Source: Methanosarcina barkeri str. Wiesmoor
Lineage (GTDB): Archaea; Halobacteriota; Methanosarcinia; Methanosarcinales; Methanosarcinaceae
Assembly (NCBI RefSeq): GCF_000969985.1
Contig: NZ_CP009526.1
Location: forward strand, 682,001-746,000
Reading direction: 5' to 3'
Length of the DNA: 64,000 nucleotides
The position numbers were made by a program, and so were the translations under genes. Each line of letters opens with the position of its first letter. Position 1 is the first letter of the stretch. Below, piece after piece: positions 15,121 through 20,139 of the stretch. The notes under the pieces were generated by a model that searched no databases, was not told the DNA's origin, and saw nothing but the letters and a program-made list of their open reading frames with translations.

Positions 15121-15693
15121 CTAGTTTTCTTTTTGTACATATGGCTGCATGTTAAGGTACATTGGAACAAAATCGGTTTTCTTATTCTTCTCTGCAACTT
15201 TAAATTCGAATTTTTCATAGAAGCCGGTTGACTCTAATTTGGAGTCCACCAGGAGATATCTACAACCTATATTATCACAAGTAGATACCACTTGAGCCAG
15301 AATAATTTTCATTAAAAAAGTTCCTATCCCACATCTTTCGAACCTGGAATCAACCGCCAGTCTTGCAATTTTAACCGCTGGATATTTTCTATATGGGTAA
15401 GATTTGATTCCATCAATTACATTTTTGGTTTCAATTGTGTCGGCTGCTAGAGAATAGAATCCGACCAGAGAACCATTGCAAAAACATAATCGTGTTCGGT
15501 TGACTAAATTATTTTGATCTAACAGGGCATTGGTCTTTAAAAAATCATTTAACTCTTCACTTTCGCAGTTAAAAGAAGAAAGATCGTCAGCTTCATCGAG
15601 AGGCAGTATAATAAGTTCATTGTCGAGATTTTCGTGCTTTAAGTTCTCTGACTTTTCGCTCGTTTTTCTCATATAATTCCCTGCCTTCGGCAA
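15121..15693 (-). CDS. GNAT-family acetyltransferase toxin
   Basis: The product (190 residues from the first ATG) has a GNAT fold with the acetyl-CoA loop R-x-x-x-G-I-G in ARLAVDSRFERCGIGTFL and the C-terminal GFYEKFEF strand. Toxins of this type acetylate aminoacyl-tRNAs or, in other branches, other targets. The gene overlaps the small antitoxin gene by 77 bases, the typical antitoxin-first arrangement. ATG at 15672 or a codon slightly further down is as plausible a start as 15693, because the first 25 residues precede the conserved domain. Cytoplasmic; repression of its own operon by the antitoxin is expected from the family, not visible here. Confidence 0.75.
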   Translation of the reverse strand: MPKAGNYMRKTSEKSENLKHENLDNELIILPLDEADDLSSFNCESEELNDFLKTNALLDQNNLVNRTRLCFCNGSLVGFYSLAADTIETKNVIDGIKSYPYRKYPAVKIARLAVDSRFERCGIGTFLMKIILAQVVSTCDNIGCRYLLVDSKLESTGFYEKFEFKVAEKNKKTDFVPMYLNMQPYVQKEN

Positions 15694-15892: not shown

Positions 15893-16030
15893 ACAGTGTG
15901 TTATTTATAACACGCTTTTTACAGCAATTGCCAATTCTCCTTTTTCTTTTTTGTCAGTGACCGCCCGATATCTGCTACTTCGCAGCATGCGGGCGTGGAG
16001 AGAAGTTTTAAGATAAATTTAAAAAAGAGA
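15893..16030 (-). repeat. Hairpin repeat family, copy 3 (long form)
   Basis: The core at 15961-15995 reads CCGCCCGATATCTGC, loop, GCAGCATGCGGGCG: the family in inverse orientation to copies 1 and 2. On the left it shares TATAACACGCTTTTTA and the AATTGC...TCAGTGA stretch with copy 4, and on the right GGAGAGAAGTTTTAAGATAAA resembles the flank of copies 1 and 2. It sits in the 3' region of the MtrA-like gene, nine bases beyond its stop. Confidence 0.8.
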
Positions 16031-16038
16031 TTGAAGAA

Positions 16039-16605
16039 TTAAAAGCAACCCTCTGTTCGCCCTTTCTTTATTTTTGACATCACATTATTTTTTACTATAT
16101 GCTCGTATTTTCTCCAGCTGCTTCCATCTATTTCGGGCATTGAGACAATGTAAGCTTCGCTTCTTTTCTGGCCGGTGCAGGAGTCGATTGCTTTCTGGAT
16201 GGCGTCAGGGTCTTTATTTCCGATCAGGTCTATGATTTTTATTTCCTTGATAAAACGGGAGATTGCAGTCATGGGAATTTCATTTAGGTAGGACAGTGGG
16301 GATTTTGAACCGATTATTTTTCTTGAGCCTGCCATTGTGGAAACTCCATTTTCGGCAAGTGAAACCAGGGACTGACCTGCCCAGTGGGCGCTTTCTTTTC
16401 CGCAGACGACCAGGTAGTTTATGTTTGGATTTGCAAGCACATTAGTTATTATCTTTTCAATCCCAAAGTTTGCAGTAAAACAGGTCCCACAGATTGCATA
16501 GTTCTTAAGTCCCCATTCCTTGTAGTCAGAGGCAAGAGTTACTACAGCTACACTCGAATTTGTGTCTCCTACTACGTAGTTTCCGGAAGTTATAGGCCAT
16601 TCCAT
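16039..16605 (-). CDS. Soluble MtrA-like corrinoid protein
   Basis: The 188 residues match the cytoplasmic domain of subunit A of tetrahydromethanopterin:coenzyme M methyltransferase, the corrinoid-carrying subunit. Hallmarks are CGTCFTANFGIEKI and CGKESAHWAGQSLVSLAENGV; the His in the latter corresponds to the cobalamin-ligating position. The C-terminal membrane helix of true MtrA is absent and no other mtr gene is nearby, so this is an orphan, probably soluble, methyl carrier of the MtxA type described from Methanosarcina. It may shuttle methyl groups between unidentified partner methyltransferases. ATG 16605 is preceded by the minus-strand sequence GGAGCAAAACGCT, a workable ribosome binding site. 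A hairpin repeat follows directly after the stop. Confidence 0.8.
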   Translation of the reverse strand: MEWPITSGNYVVGDTNSSVAVVTLASDYKEWGLKNYAICGTCFTANFGIEKIITNVLANPNINYLVVCGKESAHWAGQSLVSLAENGVSTMAGSRKIIGSKSPLSYLNEIPMTAISRFIKEIKIIDLIGNKDPDAIQKAIDSCTGQKRSEAYIVSMPEIDGSSWRKYEHIVKNNVMSKIKKGRTEGCF

Positions 16606-16890: not shown

Positions 16891-17035
16891 TAAACTTAAT
16901 GATTTCTGATATCCTGACCTAAACTCCGTGATTTCTGATATTCTGATCTATACTCCGTGATTTCTGATATCCTGACCTAAACTCAGTAATTTCTGATATT
17001 CTGATCTACACTCAGTAATTTCTGATATTCTTATC
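16891..17035. repeat. 29-bp tandem repeat, five units
   Basis: Five exact-length 29-bp units with consensus TAAACTCMGTRATTTCTGAT followed by ATYCTGAYC; the units vary at a few positions. It lies upstream of the aRF1 gene, between a MITE and hairpin repeat copy 4. There are no spacers, so it is not a CRISPR. Confidence 0.85.
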
Positions 17036-17054
17036 CAGACTGCTCCCATAGATA

Positions 17055-17200
17055 CTTATAACAATGTGCCATCTATAACACGCTTTTTATGTTAATTGCT
17101 GATTTTTTTCTTCTCTTTTGCCAGTGATAGCCCGATATCTGCTCACTTTGTGAGCGTGCAGGCTTGGAGGGGAATTTTGAATTTAAATTCAAAAAAGTGT
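17055..17200 (-). repeat. Hairpin repeat family, copy 4
   Basis: The core at 17129-17164 reads AGCCCGATATCTGCTCAC, TTT, GTGAGCGTGCAGGCT. The inner stem GCTCAC/GTGAGC is longer than in the other copies, while an outer G/C change is less well paired. Left flank TATAACACGCTTTTTA...TTTGCCAGTGA matches copy 3. It ends about 90 bp before the aRF1 start. Confidence 0.75.
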
Positions 17201-17290
17201 TTTTAAAAAGATAAACATAAATGAATATTGTAGTTTTATGTCATTTTTAGGTCTCTCAACTATTTTACATGAGAAAAGGAGGAAGCTGGA

Positions 17291-18538
17291 ATGGCTGAAT
17301 ACTGTACATATGAAAAATATGTATTTAAAAAGAAGCTTGAAACTCTAAGAAATAAAAATGGAAAGAGTACAGAATTAATTTCCCTTTATATTCCTTCTGA
17401 TAAACAGATTTCAGATGTTACAAATCATTTGAGGGAAGAGCATGAGCAGGCTTCAAAAATTAAGTCTAAACTTACCAGCAATAACGTACAGGGAGCACTT
17501 GATTCTTTGTTGGCAAAGTTAAGATCTCTTAACAAAATACCGGAAAATGGGATAGTTTATTTTACAGGAGTTATCGATACTGGAGCTAACAGGACAGGTA
17601 TGGTTACTGAAGTTCTTATTCCTCCGGAACCTGTTGTAGATTACATATATCACTGTGATTCTGTTTTTTATCTTGAGCCTCTTGAGGAAATGCTCAGAGA
17701 GTGCAGTACTTATGGGTTTATACTTCTTGATTTAAGAGAAGCGACTATCGGAATGCTTGTAGGTAGGCATACTGAAGCTATTAAGCATCTCCATTCCACT
17801 GTCCCTGGAAAACAAAGAAAAGGAGGTCAGAGTGCACATCGTTTTGAACAGCTCAGACGCATTGCCATTCATGATTTCTACAAAAGAATAGGGGATGCTG
17901 CAAGTGATGCATTCCTTGAACTAGATCCATCTGATCTTAAAGGCATTCTTATAGGAGGGCATTCTCCAACTAAAGACGAGTTCAATGAAGGTGGATTTCT
18001 ACATTATGAGCTTCAGAATAAGGTTCTTGGGTTGTTTGATACAGAGTATACGGACGAATCAGGTTTTTCTGAGTTAATAAATGCAGCAGAGGATACTCTC
18101 CAGGGTATTGACTTAATTAAACAAAAGAAAGATATTGAAATGTTTTTTAAAGAGCTCACTACCGAGTCTGGTAAAGTATCCTATGGAGAGGACAATGTAC
18201 GGGCGAATCTTGAACTAAAGGCAGTTGATGTGCTTTTACTTTCTGAAGATCTGCGGTCTGAAAGAGTAACTCTTAAATGCAGTGCTTGCGGATATGAGAA
18301 TAAACGGGCAAGAAAATGGAAATCCAATGAAGCTGTTCCTGTTGCAGGAAATTGTCCTGAATGCGGTTCTGCACTTGAAGTCACGGATGTTATTGATGTT
18401 GTTGGTGAATTCTCAGAACTCGCTGATAAAGGCAATGCAAGGATTGCTTTTATATCAACAGATTTCGATGAAGGCTCTCAACTTATGATAGCTTTTGGTG
18501 GAGTTGCTGCAATCCTTAGATATAACACAGGGGTTTAA
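17291..18538 (+). CDS. prf1: Archaeal peptide chain release factor aRF1, divergent paralogue
   Basis: The 415-residue protein has the three eRF1/aRF1 domains. The N domain normally carries NIKS, but residues 56-59 read KIKS (QASKIKSKLTSNN); the YxCxxxF stop-codon motif is intact (Y120, C122, F126). The M domain has the catalytic GGQ at 178-180 within GKQRKGGQSAHRF. The C domain has the archaeal zinc ribbon (CSAC ... CPEC). It should release peptides at stop codons on the ribosome. The Asn-to-Lys change in the codon-reading motif suggests a second, specialised aRF1 copy, as recalled for some Methanosarcina that use UAG for pyrrolysine; no second copy is in this window. AGGAGG sits 8 bases before ATG. 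The spacer upstream is full of repeats. Confidence 0.88.
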   Translation: MAEYCTYEKYVFKKKLETLRNKNGKSTELISLYIPSDKQISDVTNHLREEHEQASKIKSKLTSNNVQGALDSLLAKLRSLNKIPENGIVYFTGVIDTGANRTGMVTEVLIPPEPVVDYIYHCDSVFYLEPLEEMLRECSTYGFILLDLREATIGMLVGRHTEAIKHLHSTVPGKQRKGGQSAHRFEQLRRIAIHDFYKRIGDAASDAFLELDPSDLKGILIGGHSPTKDEFNEGGFLHYELQNKVLGLFDTEYTDESGFSELINAAEDTLQGIDLIKQKKDIEMFFKELTTESGKVSYGEDNVRANLELKAVDVLLLSEDLRSERVTLKCSACGYENKRARKWKSNEAVPVAGNCPECGSALEVTDVIDVVGEFSELADKGNARIAFISTDFDEGSQLMIAFGGVAAILRYNTGV

Positions 18539-18540
18539 TT

Positions 18541-18719
18541 TATTTCAGTTTGCTTTAATTTGTTTTAGTTTGCTTTAATTTATTTTAGTTTGCTTTAATT
18601 TATTTTAGTTTGCTTTAATTTATTTCAGTTTATCTTAGTTTATCTTAGTTTGTCTTAGTTTATTTTAGTTTATTTTAGTTTATCTTGGTTTATCTTGGTT
18701 TATCTTAGTTTGTCTTAGT
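18541..18719. repeat. 10-bp tandem repeat array between convergent genes
   Basis: About 18 units of exactly 10 bp with consensus TARTTTRYYT (TAGTTTATTT, TAATTTATTT, TAGTTTGCTT). It fills the whole space between the 3' ends of the aRF1 gene and the deacetylase gene and touches the latter's stop codon. On the plus strand it is very T-rich, so it could also serve as a terminator for aRF1. Confidence 0.9.
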
Positions 18720-19445
18720 TCATGAGTGCCGTATTACGTGATTTCCAGTCGCCAATAGTTCATCTACTGTTACAAAATTAAATCCCTTTTTCTGTAATTC
18801 CGGGATTGCTCTGTCTAAAGCCGACACAATCCCGAAGTTTGCCTCATGAGTTCCACTGTGTCCATCGTGGCATAAAATAATTGATCCATTTTCAGTATTT
18901 CTCACTATGTTGTTGTAAAGATCTGCTGGTCCATACGTGTAAATGATAGGTCCGTCAAGAATAACAGCAGGTTCGGTGGAACTATCTCCTGAGCGACAGC
19001 TCCATAAAACAGTTTTGAGGTCAAGTGCTTTTGTTATATTACTTACTCTGTCGTCGATGTTGCCGTAGGGAGGACGAAAGTACACAGGAAGTTTTCCTAT
19101 CAAATTAGTGATTATATTTCTGGTTCTGGACAGTTCATTATTAAGAATTTCTTCATCAGTAAGTCTGGAAAGAGCTAGATGATCATAAGAATGAACGGCT
19201 ATGAGATGGCCTTCATCATTTGCACGTTTGACAATTTCGCTGCCCGTTATGTACCTGCCTGTATAGTCCTGAGCAGCAATGTTTTTGTCAATGCAGTAAC
19301 CAAGACAAAAAAATGTGGCTTTAGTTCCATACTTCCGAAGCACATCAAGGATATATGGGGTTATTCTGCCTGGACCATCGTCAAAGGTCAGAGCAATATT
19401 AGGGATTATAGGATTACCTTTTACAATTATCTCTTTTGACATCAT
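18720..19445 (-). CDS. Polysaccharide deacetylase (NodB/CE4 family)
   Basis: The 241-residue protein shows all five NodB motifs: TFDDGP (residues 20-25, metal and catalytic Asp), HSYDH (two metal-binding His), RPPYG (motif 3), a Trp in LWSCRSGDSS (motif 4) and ILCHDGH (catalytic His). CE4 enzymes remove acetyl groups from N-acetylated polysaccharides. There is no signal peptide, so it may act on cytoplasmic or lipid-linked precursors, or be exported by another route. Translation can start at either of two adjacent ATGs at 19445 and 19442; the minus-strand sequence upstream has AGGTATTATG, a modest ribosome binding site. It is divergent from the small regulator at 19759. Confidence 0.85.
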   Translation of the reverse strand: MMSKEIIVKGNPIIPNIALTFDDGPGRITPYILDVLRKYGTKATFFCLGYCIDKNIAAQDYTGRYITGSEIVKRANDEGHLIAVHSYDHLALSRLTDEEILNNELSRTRNIITNLIGKLPVYFRPPYGNIDDRVSNITKALDLKTVLWSCRSGDSSTEPAVILDGPIIYTYGPADLYNNIVRNTENGSIILCHDGHSGTHEANFGIVSALDRAIPELQKKGFNFVTVDELLATGNHVIRHS

Positions 19446-19758: not shown

Positions 19759-20046
19759 ATGGATAAATTAGAAAAAATATTCGGGAAAACTGCACAGATG
19801 ACAGTCCTTAAGAATCTTATTGAAAGACAAAACGAACCAACTTATCTTTCAGGAATAGCTGAGGAAACTGGATTGTCACATGCAAGCGTATCACGTGTCA
19901 TCACACCTCTGGTTGGATCGGGAGTTGTTACAGAAAAACCCTTCGGAAAACAAACTCGAATTTTCCAGTTGAACTCGGAAAGCGAAGCTGCAAAGTTGAT
20001 AGTAGATTTTTACAATAAAATTAACCAGACAAAGATTGAAGCCTAA
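19759..20046 (+). CDS. Small winged-helix transcriptional regulator
   Basis: The 95 residues form a single winged helix-turn-helix of the ArsR/MarR kind: helix 2-turn-recognition helix at YLSGIAEETGLSHASVSRVITPL (about residues 29-51) and the wing at GVVTEKPFGKQTRIFQL (55-71). It should bind DNA as a dimer; the ligand is unknown and no Cys metal site is present. It is probably a local regulator, perhaps of itself and the divergent deacetylase. Its last codons (TTGAAGCC then TAA) are the first unit of a 26-bp tandem repeat, so the repeat has spread from, or into, the gene end. GAGATGAAAAAC precedes the ATG as a weak ribosome binding site. Confidence 0.75.
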   Translation: MDKLEKIFGKTAQMTVLKNLIERQNEPTYLSGIAEETGLSHASVSRVITPLVGSGVVTEKPFGKQTRIFQLNSESEAAKLIVDFYNKINQTKIEA

Positions 20047-20139
20047 ACAATAATAAGCATGTTGAAGCTTAAACAATAATAAGCATGTTGAAGCTTAAAC
20101 AATAATAAGCATGTTGAAGCTTAAACAATAATAAGTGTG
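20036..20139. repeat. 26-bp tandem repeat, four units, overlapping a gene end
   Basis: Four units of TTGAAGCTTAAACAATAATA plus AGCATG; the first carries the final codons and stop of the winged-helix gene and the last diverges at its end. Directly behind it GGATGCTTTAACTCCCA occurs twice (20147-20180). Confidence 0.88.

Follow-up and report, generated by a model that had tools for sequence, protein, structure and literature searches.

The locus and its features

The window, a 64,000-nucleotide stretch of the Methanosarcina barkeri str. Wiesmoor genome, contains the second gene for an archaeal class-1 release factor (aRF1-2) of this genome. The gene is intact from ATG to TAA and encodes 415 amino acids (Table 1). 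All three Pfam domains of the a/eRF1 class (eRF1_1, eRF1_2 and eRF1_3) scored above cut-off on its product, GGQ is present in domain M and YxCxxxF reads YHCDSVF, but the NIKS motif of this class is replaced by KIKS. A preliminary description of the locus, made from the sequence alone, had reported lysine at residue 56 and intact YxCxxxF and GGQ motifs, and we confirmed all three in the open reading frame. The description had also supposed that this is a second aRF1. The genome (completeness 99.95%) indeed encodes a complete housekeeping factor with NIKS, aRF1-1, which adjoins argS (arginyl-tRNA synthetase) at G000:C2:4832650-4833894. In every other single-copy aRF1 read from the order, the motif was NIKS and never KIKS. 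A third, degraded copy, a remnant of an aRF1-2, lies at G000:C2:1054020-1054377 (L049 8007-8410).

The neighbors of aRF1-2 in the window are an MtrA-like gene (methyltransferase subunit A family) and a polysaccharide deacetylase gene, with a GNAT acetyltransferase also nearby. A dispersed repeat of ~120 bp, found at 14 places in the genome, lies just upstream, and 10-bp tandem repeats begin at the stop codon; the earlier placement of the gene among mobile repeats was therefore fair. The two copies of the dispersed repeat in the window contain a possible hairpin (GCCCGATATCTGCT...GCGGGC), and several copies cluster near C2:3.15 Mb and 0.65-0.70 Mb. We searched this repeat and the region upstream of aRF1-2 against Rfam and found no match to a known RNA element.

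Table 1. Positions of aRF1-2, its motifs and nearby elements in the window
Feature	Position	Strand	Basis or remark
aRF1-2 gene, second archaeal class-1 release factor	17291..18538	+	Pfam; one clade with 14 orthologues, SH-aLRT 100
KIKS, residues 56-59, codons AAA ATT AAG TCT	17456..17467	+	NIKS in aRF1-1; equivalent to human N61-S64
YHCDSVF (YxCxxxF), residues 120-126, intact in window copy	17648..17668	+	Orthologue comparison
GGQ, catalytic, residues 178-180	17822..17830	+	Identical in 15/15 orthologues
Zinc-ribbon minidomain of C domain, Cys 330, 333, 355, 358	18278..18364	+	Kept in every orthologue
GGAGG ribosome-binding site, 8 bases 5' of ATG	17278..17282	+	Sequence
Upstream stretch common to aRF1-2 copies in unrelated surroundings; part of travelling unit	17106..17290	+	Sequence comparison
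MtrA-like gene	16039..16605
GNAT acetyltransferase gene	15121..15693
~120-bp dispersed repeat, two copies	15907..16030; 17075..17200
Tandem array, 10-bp units	18535..18733
Tandem array, 29-bp units	16891..17041
Tandem array, 26-bp units	20036..20135

Distribution and phylogeny

Complete aRF1-2 orthologues were present in 12 of the 31 Methanosarcina genomes and in three of four genomes of a sister genus (g5); our search of further genera of the order found none. Two incomplete copies were also present, one frameshifted (G027) and one a fragment of 81 residues (G022). In the tree, the 15 complete sequences, with the window gene among them, group together with a duplicate record (L066) in a single clade (SH-aLRT 100) on a long stem beside the aRF1-1 of Methanosarcina. 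Among archaeal release factors, aRF1-2 is an old paralogue restricted to Methanosarcina and one sister genus. Like canonical aRF1-1, to which the window copy is 69% identical within the same genome, it has all three eRF1 domains, GGQ and the zinc ribbon. Unlike aRF1-2, aRF1-1 combines an invariant NIKS with a dN/dS of ~0.05 in every domain, a position beside argS and vertical inheritance.

A second aRF1 is already known as the Methanosarcina paralogue “aRF1-2,” and the window gene belongs to the same orthologous group as the second aRF1 of M. acetivorans and M. mazei. The copy in G001, which we take to be M. acetivorans, lies beside cydAB (the MA1006/MA1007 neighborhood). This copy carries NIIS at a different genome location, whereas the window copy carries KIKS. 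Citing Alkalaeva et al. 2009, a 2010 review describes one of the two M. acetivorans factors as without activity and its function as open (PMC2933860), as it has been called in the literature since about that time. The summary of the same study in PMC2943090 states that only one of two factors was active. The two accounts disagree as to whether the factors tested were those of M. barkeri or M. acetivorans and whether M. barkeri has two.

Horizontal movement

Over the same genome pairs, median dS was 0.28 for aRF1-2 compared to 1.24 for aRF1-1, with aRF1-2 lower in 104 of 105 pairs. Between the window genome and the sister genus, dS was 0.17-0.19 for aRF1-2 and >2 for aRF1-1. Because these values across genera are far below those of aRF1-1, aRF1-2 moves horizontally and is a horizontally spread mobile paralogue. 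The closest other genome bearing aRF1-2 to that of the window is G003 (aRF1-1 dS 0.22). For the small second contig of the window genome, the best plasmid matches fall in the M. barkeri group. Similarity between aRF1-2 loci covers the gene, about 100-230 bases on its 5' side and ~10 bases on its 3' side (slightly more in some pairs), and then ends.

No aRF1-2 was found in the viral contigs, phages and plasmid collections that we searched. Carriage by a virus, phage or known plasmid was rejected, as the only matches were distant aRF1s on haloarchaeal plasmids. These plasmid-borne proteins (prf1, 358 aa) are likewise second, movable archaeal aRF1s, but identity is about 31%, and they have no zinc ribbon and keep NIKS intact. 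Several of the haloarchaeal plasmid loci (L171-L176) are near toxin genes (PemK/MazF, Doc, VapC and a nucleotidyltransferase-DUF86 pair).

Variation in the codon-reading motifs

In a/eRF1 proteins, GGQ works in the peptidyl-transferase center and NIKS and YxCxxxF in codon reading, and NIK was present in all a/eRF1 examined in that work except those of ciliates (PMC2613156). All 32 aRF1-1 that we examined (29 from Methanosarcina and 3 from the sister genus) carry NIKS. Among the 15 complete aRF1-2, the tetrapeptide takes eight forms: KIKS in the window, NIES in four, NIKS in three, DIKS and NIKP in two each, and GIKS, NIIS and NIQP in one each. YxCxxxF is broken in G006 (YHSDSIF) and G023 (YHCDSVY). 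On the tree, the four NIKS sites underwent nine amino-acid changes; the GGQ loop (residues 173-184) underwent one within the clade over 12 sites, and GGQ itself is constant in all aRF1-2. Glu50, Ile57 and Tyr120 are also constant throughout the orthologues. Since the tetrapeptide differs among species, KIKS is one of many substitutions rather than a defined new motif.

We compared the rate of change at NIKS to that at other sites invariant in aRF1-1 by permutation (p = 0.07 within the N domain and 0.03 over all such sites). A special hot spot at NIKS was not supported, as it changes no faster than such sites elsewhere in the N domain, which indicates that the whole N domain is relaxed. The aRF1-2 of G011 (Methanosarcina sp. 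Ant1; L060 990-2237) is 80% identical to the window copy and in parts looks closer to aRF1-1, with YKYHCNSTF as in the aRF1-1 of its own genome; it is possibly recombinant.

Selection by domain

Pairwise counting with a codon bootstrap gave aRF1-2 dN/dS values of 0.42 (0.30-0.57) in the N domain, 0.10 (0.07-0.15) in the M domain and 0.23 (0.16-0.31) in the C domain. For aRF1-1, counted within the M. barkeri group, where dS is unsaturated, the respective values were 0.04, 0.04 and 0.05. Maximum likelihood under a codon model gave 0.48, 0.11 and 0.21 for aRF1-2 and 0.043, 0.055 and 0.071 for aRF1-1. The dS of aRF1-2 is 0.21 in N and 0.35 in M, which inflates the N ratio, yet dN by itself is 2.4-fold higher in N. 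Thus, the N domain has lost most of its constraint, though its dN/dS is still below 1, and the GGQ-bearing M domain is under purifying selection.

On the stem of the clade, nonsynonymous and synonymous changes were distributed alike in the two domains (29:39 in N and 37:47 in M). Within the crown they differed, both on internal branches (47:24 in N versus 24:55 in M, p = 1.7 × 10−5) and at the tips (122:75 versus 54:109, p = 5.7 × 10−8). The loss of constraint on codon reading therefore dates to the current spread of the gene and not to the duplication.

Genomic neighborhood, start codons and stop codons

In seven genomes (G001, G002, G003, G004, G006, G028 and G030), aRF1-2 adjoins or is near genes for a Fur-family regulator, CydA and CydB. 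The aRF1-2 remnant in the window genome immediately precedes a Fur-family regulator gene and cydA-cydB, an arrangement that is intact in related species. Across the genus, cydA is present in 9 of the 12 genomes that have aRF1-2 and in 5 of the 19 that do not (one-sided Fisher p ~0.01, kinship ignored). The M. acetivorans cydAB genes (MA1006/MA1007) are reported to rise on O2 exposure (PMC11619418); we regard an oxygen link of aRF1-2 as a lead only.

ACG replaces the ATG start in G003, G004, G028 and G030 (L053, L054, L055 and L056), with the ribosome-binding site retained and no alternative in-frame start before Met 104. Residues 2-103 in this group have a dN/dS of 0.33 (0.19-0.61), and we rejected translation from Met 104 only, as these residues still evolve below neutrality; judging from this rate, they are probably translated. 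The ACG starts may be the reason for an earlier statement that M. barkeri has only one aRF1. Seven of the 15 aRF1-2 genes end in TAG (L051, L052, L053, L054, L056, L057 and L058), though UAG is read as pyrrolysine in this lineage. In the same loci, 10 of 92 long open reading frames terminate with TAG, and the TAG stops of aRF1-2 are probably of few origins.

Possible functions of aRF1-2

As the M domain with its GGQ is conserved and the codon-reading domain is not, we infer that the selected activity is peptide release and that stop recognition is minor. A rescue factor would be expected to need exactly this combination. Our leading but tentative reading is that aRF1-2 may be a backup release or rescue factor that acts on stalled ribosomes without depending on stop-codon recognition. 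Ordinary termination would be done by aRF1-1, and aRF1-2 would still enter the ribosomal A site and release the nascent peptide from stalled ribosomes, possibly in stressed cells, for example on exposure to oxygen. With slightly more reserve, we suggest that it could be an archaeal, aRF1-derived and horizontally transmitted rescue factor, midway through losing its codon-reading domain and hydrolyzing peptidyl-tRNA without a stop codon.

Several observations point toward rescue: the domain-specific dN/dS, the kept GGQ loop and zinc cysteines, the reported inactivity of one factor at stop codons, and the Fur-cydA-cydB linkage in seven genomes together with the remnant in the window genome. The NIIS of the presumed M. 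acetivorans copy, which is without the conserved lysine, is a possible explanation of that inactivity, and some orthologues still have NIKS. Other observations count against rescue. Three orthologues keep NIKS, and Glu50, Tyr120 and Ile57 are constant, so some capacity to read codons may persist. The dN/dS of the N domain is also below neutrality, decaying copies occur (the second copy in the window genome, the G022 fragment and the G027 frameshift), no gene for RNA repair is linked, and the cydAB link is absent at the window copy and moderate as an association across genomes.

Other paralogues of release factors that have taken on rescue roles tend to show a patchy distribution and lateral spread (PMC6514570, PMC9223846). 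PrfH, a bacterial RF2-like rescue factor that occurs with RtcB2, resembles aRF1-2 in its kept catalytic motif, altered codon-reading part and sporadic presence (PMC9223846, PMC6514570). It differs in being a non-homologous bacterial class-1 factor, whereas the N domain of aRF1-2 is degenerate rather than remodelled and neither an RNA-repair gene nor RtcB is linked at aRF1-2 loci. If the rescue reading is true, archaea arrived with an eRF1-type protein at the same solution that bacteria reached with PrfH and ArfB. A kept catalytic domain, a released codon-reading domain and movement between genera together offer a concrete test of function.

The main rival reading, almost as probable as rescue, is a mobile gene that is slowly decaying. 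Here aRF1-2 would be a horizontally spreading paralogue with no required cellular role, its M-domain signal reflecting past or intermittent selection; we consider this possible, if somewhat doubtful. Such decay is consistent with the patchy presence of the gene in the genus, the pseudogene in the window genome, the G022 fragment, the G027 frameshift, the change from ATG to ACG in four genomes and a dN/dS above that of aRF1-1 in all three domains. What speaks most against it is that uniform decay should relax the domains alike, whereas M remains at ~0.1 on terminal branches and at 0.06 in the ACG-start group. The 15 complete reading frames also argue against decay, as does the window genome, in which one copy was lost and another kept intact.

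The preliminary description had proposed that a second aRF1 with altered codon reading could adjust termination at UAG in a lineage that translates it as pyrrolysine. The second aRF1, the altered decoding motif and the intact catalytic motif all stand; the role at UAG does not. Both the two-factor idea for UAG and the argument that it could not be general were already recorded in a 2010 review (PMC2933860). Altered NIKS beside intact GGQ would suit a factor with changed stop-codon preference that tunes UAG termination against pyrrolysine insertion, and the same genome encodes PylS (G000:C2:176701-177417). However, the presence of aRF1-2 does not follow pylS. Of the 112 genomes of the family, 100 carry pylS above the family cut-off, and almost all have a single aRF1. 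pylS is also present in most of the Methanosarcina genomes that have no aRF1-2; 17 or more genomes of the genus are without aRF1-2, which itself occurs only in part of two genera. As pylS is found throughout the family, also in genera with one aRF1, a role in UAG or pyrrolysine decoding is unsupported. The many motifs within one orthologous group, plain NIKS included, agree with relaxed constraint, not with a single new codon specificity, and the lack of stop-codon activity described for one M. acetivorans factor in the review (PMC2933860) further opposes a stop-codon role. We therefore rejected this role on distribution and motif variety, and consider it improbable.

Least probable of all, aRF1-2 could act without hydrolysis, as an A-site competitor or a recycling helper through its C domain, which has intermediate constraint (0.2) and keeps its zinc ribbon, but the best-kept part of the protein is the GGQ loop, which a non-catalytic role would not need.
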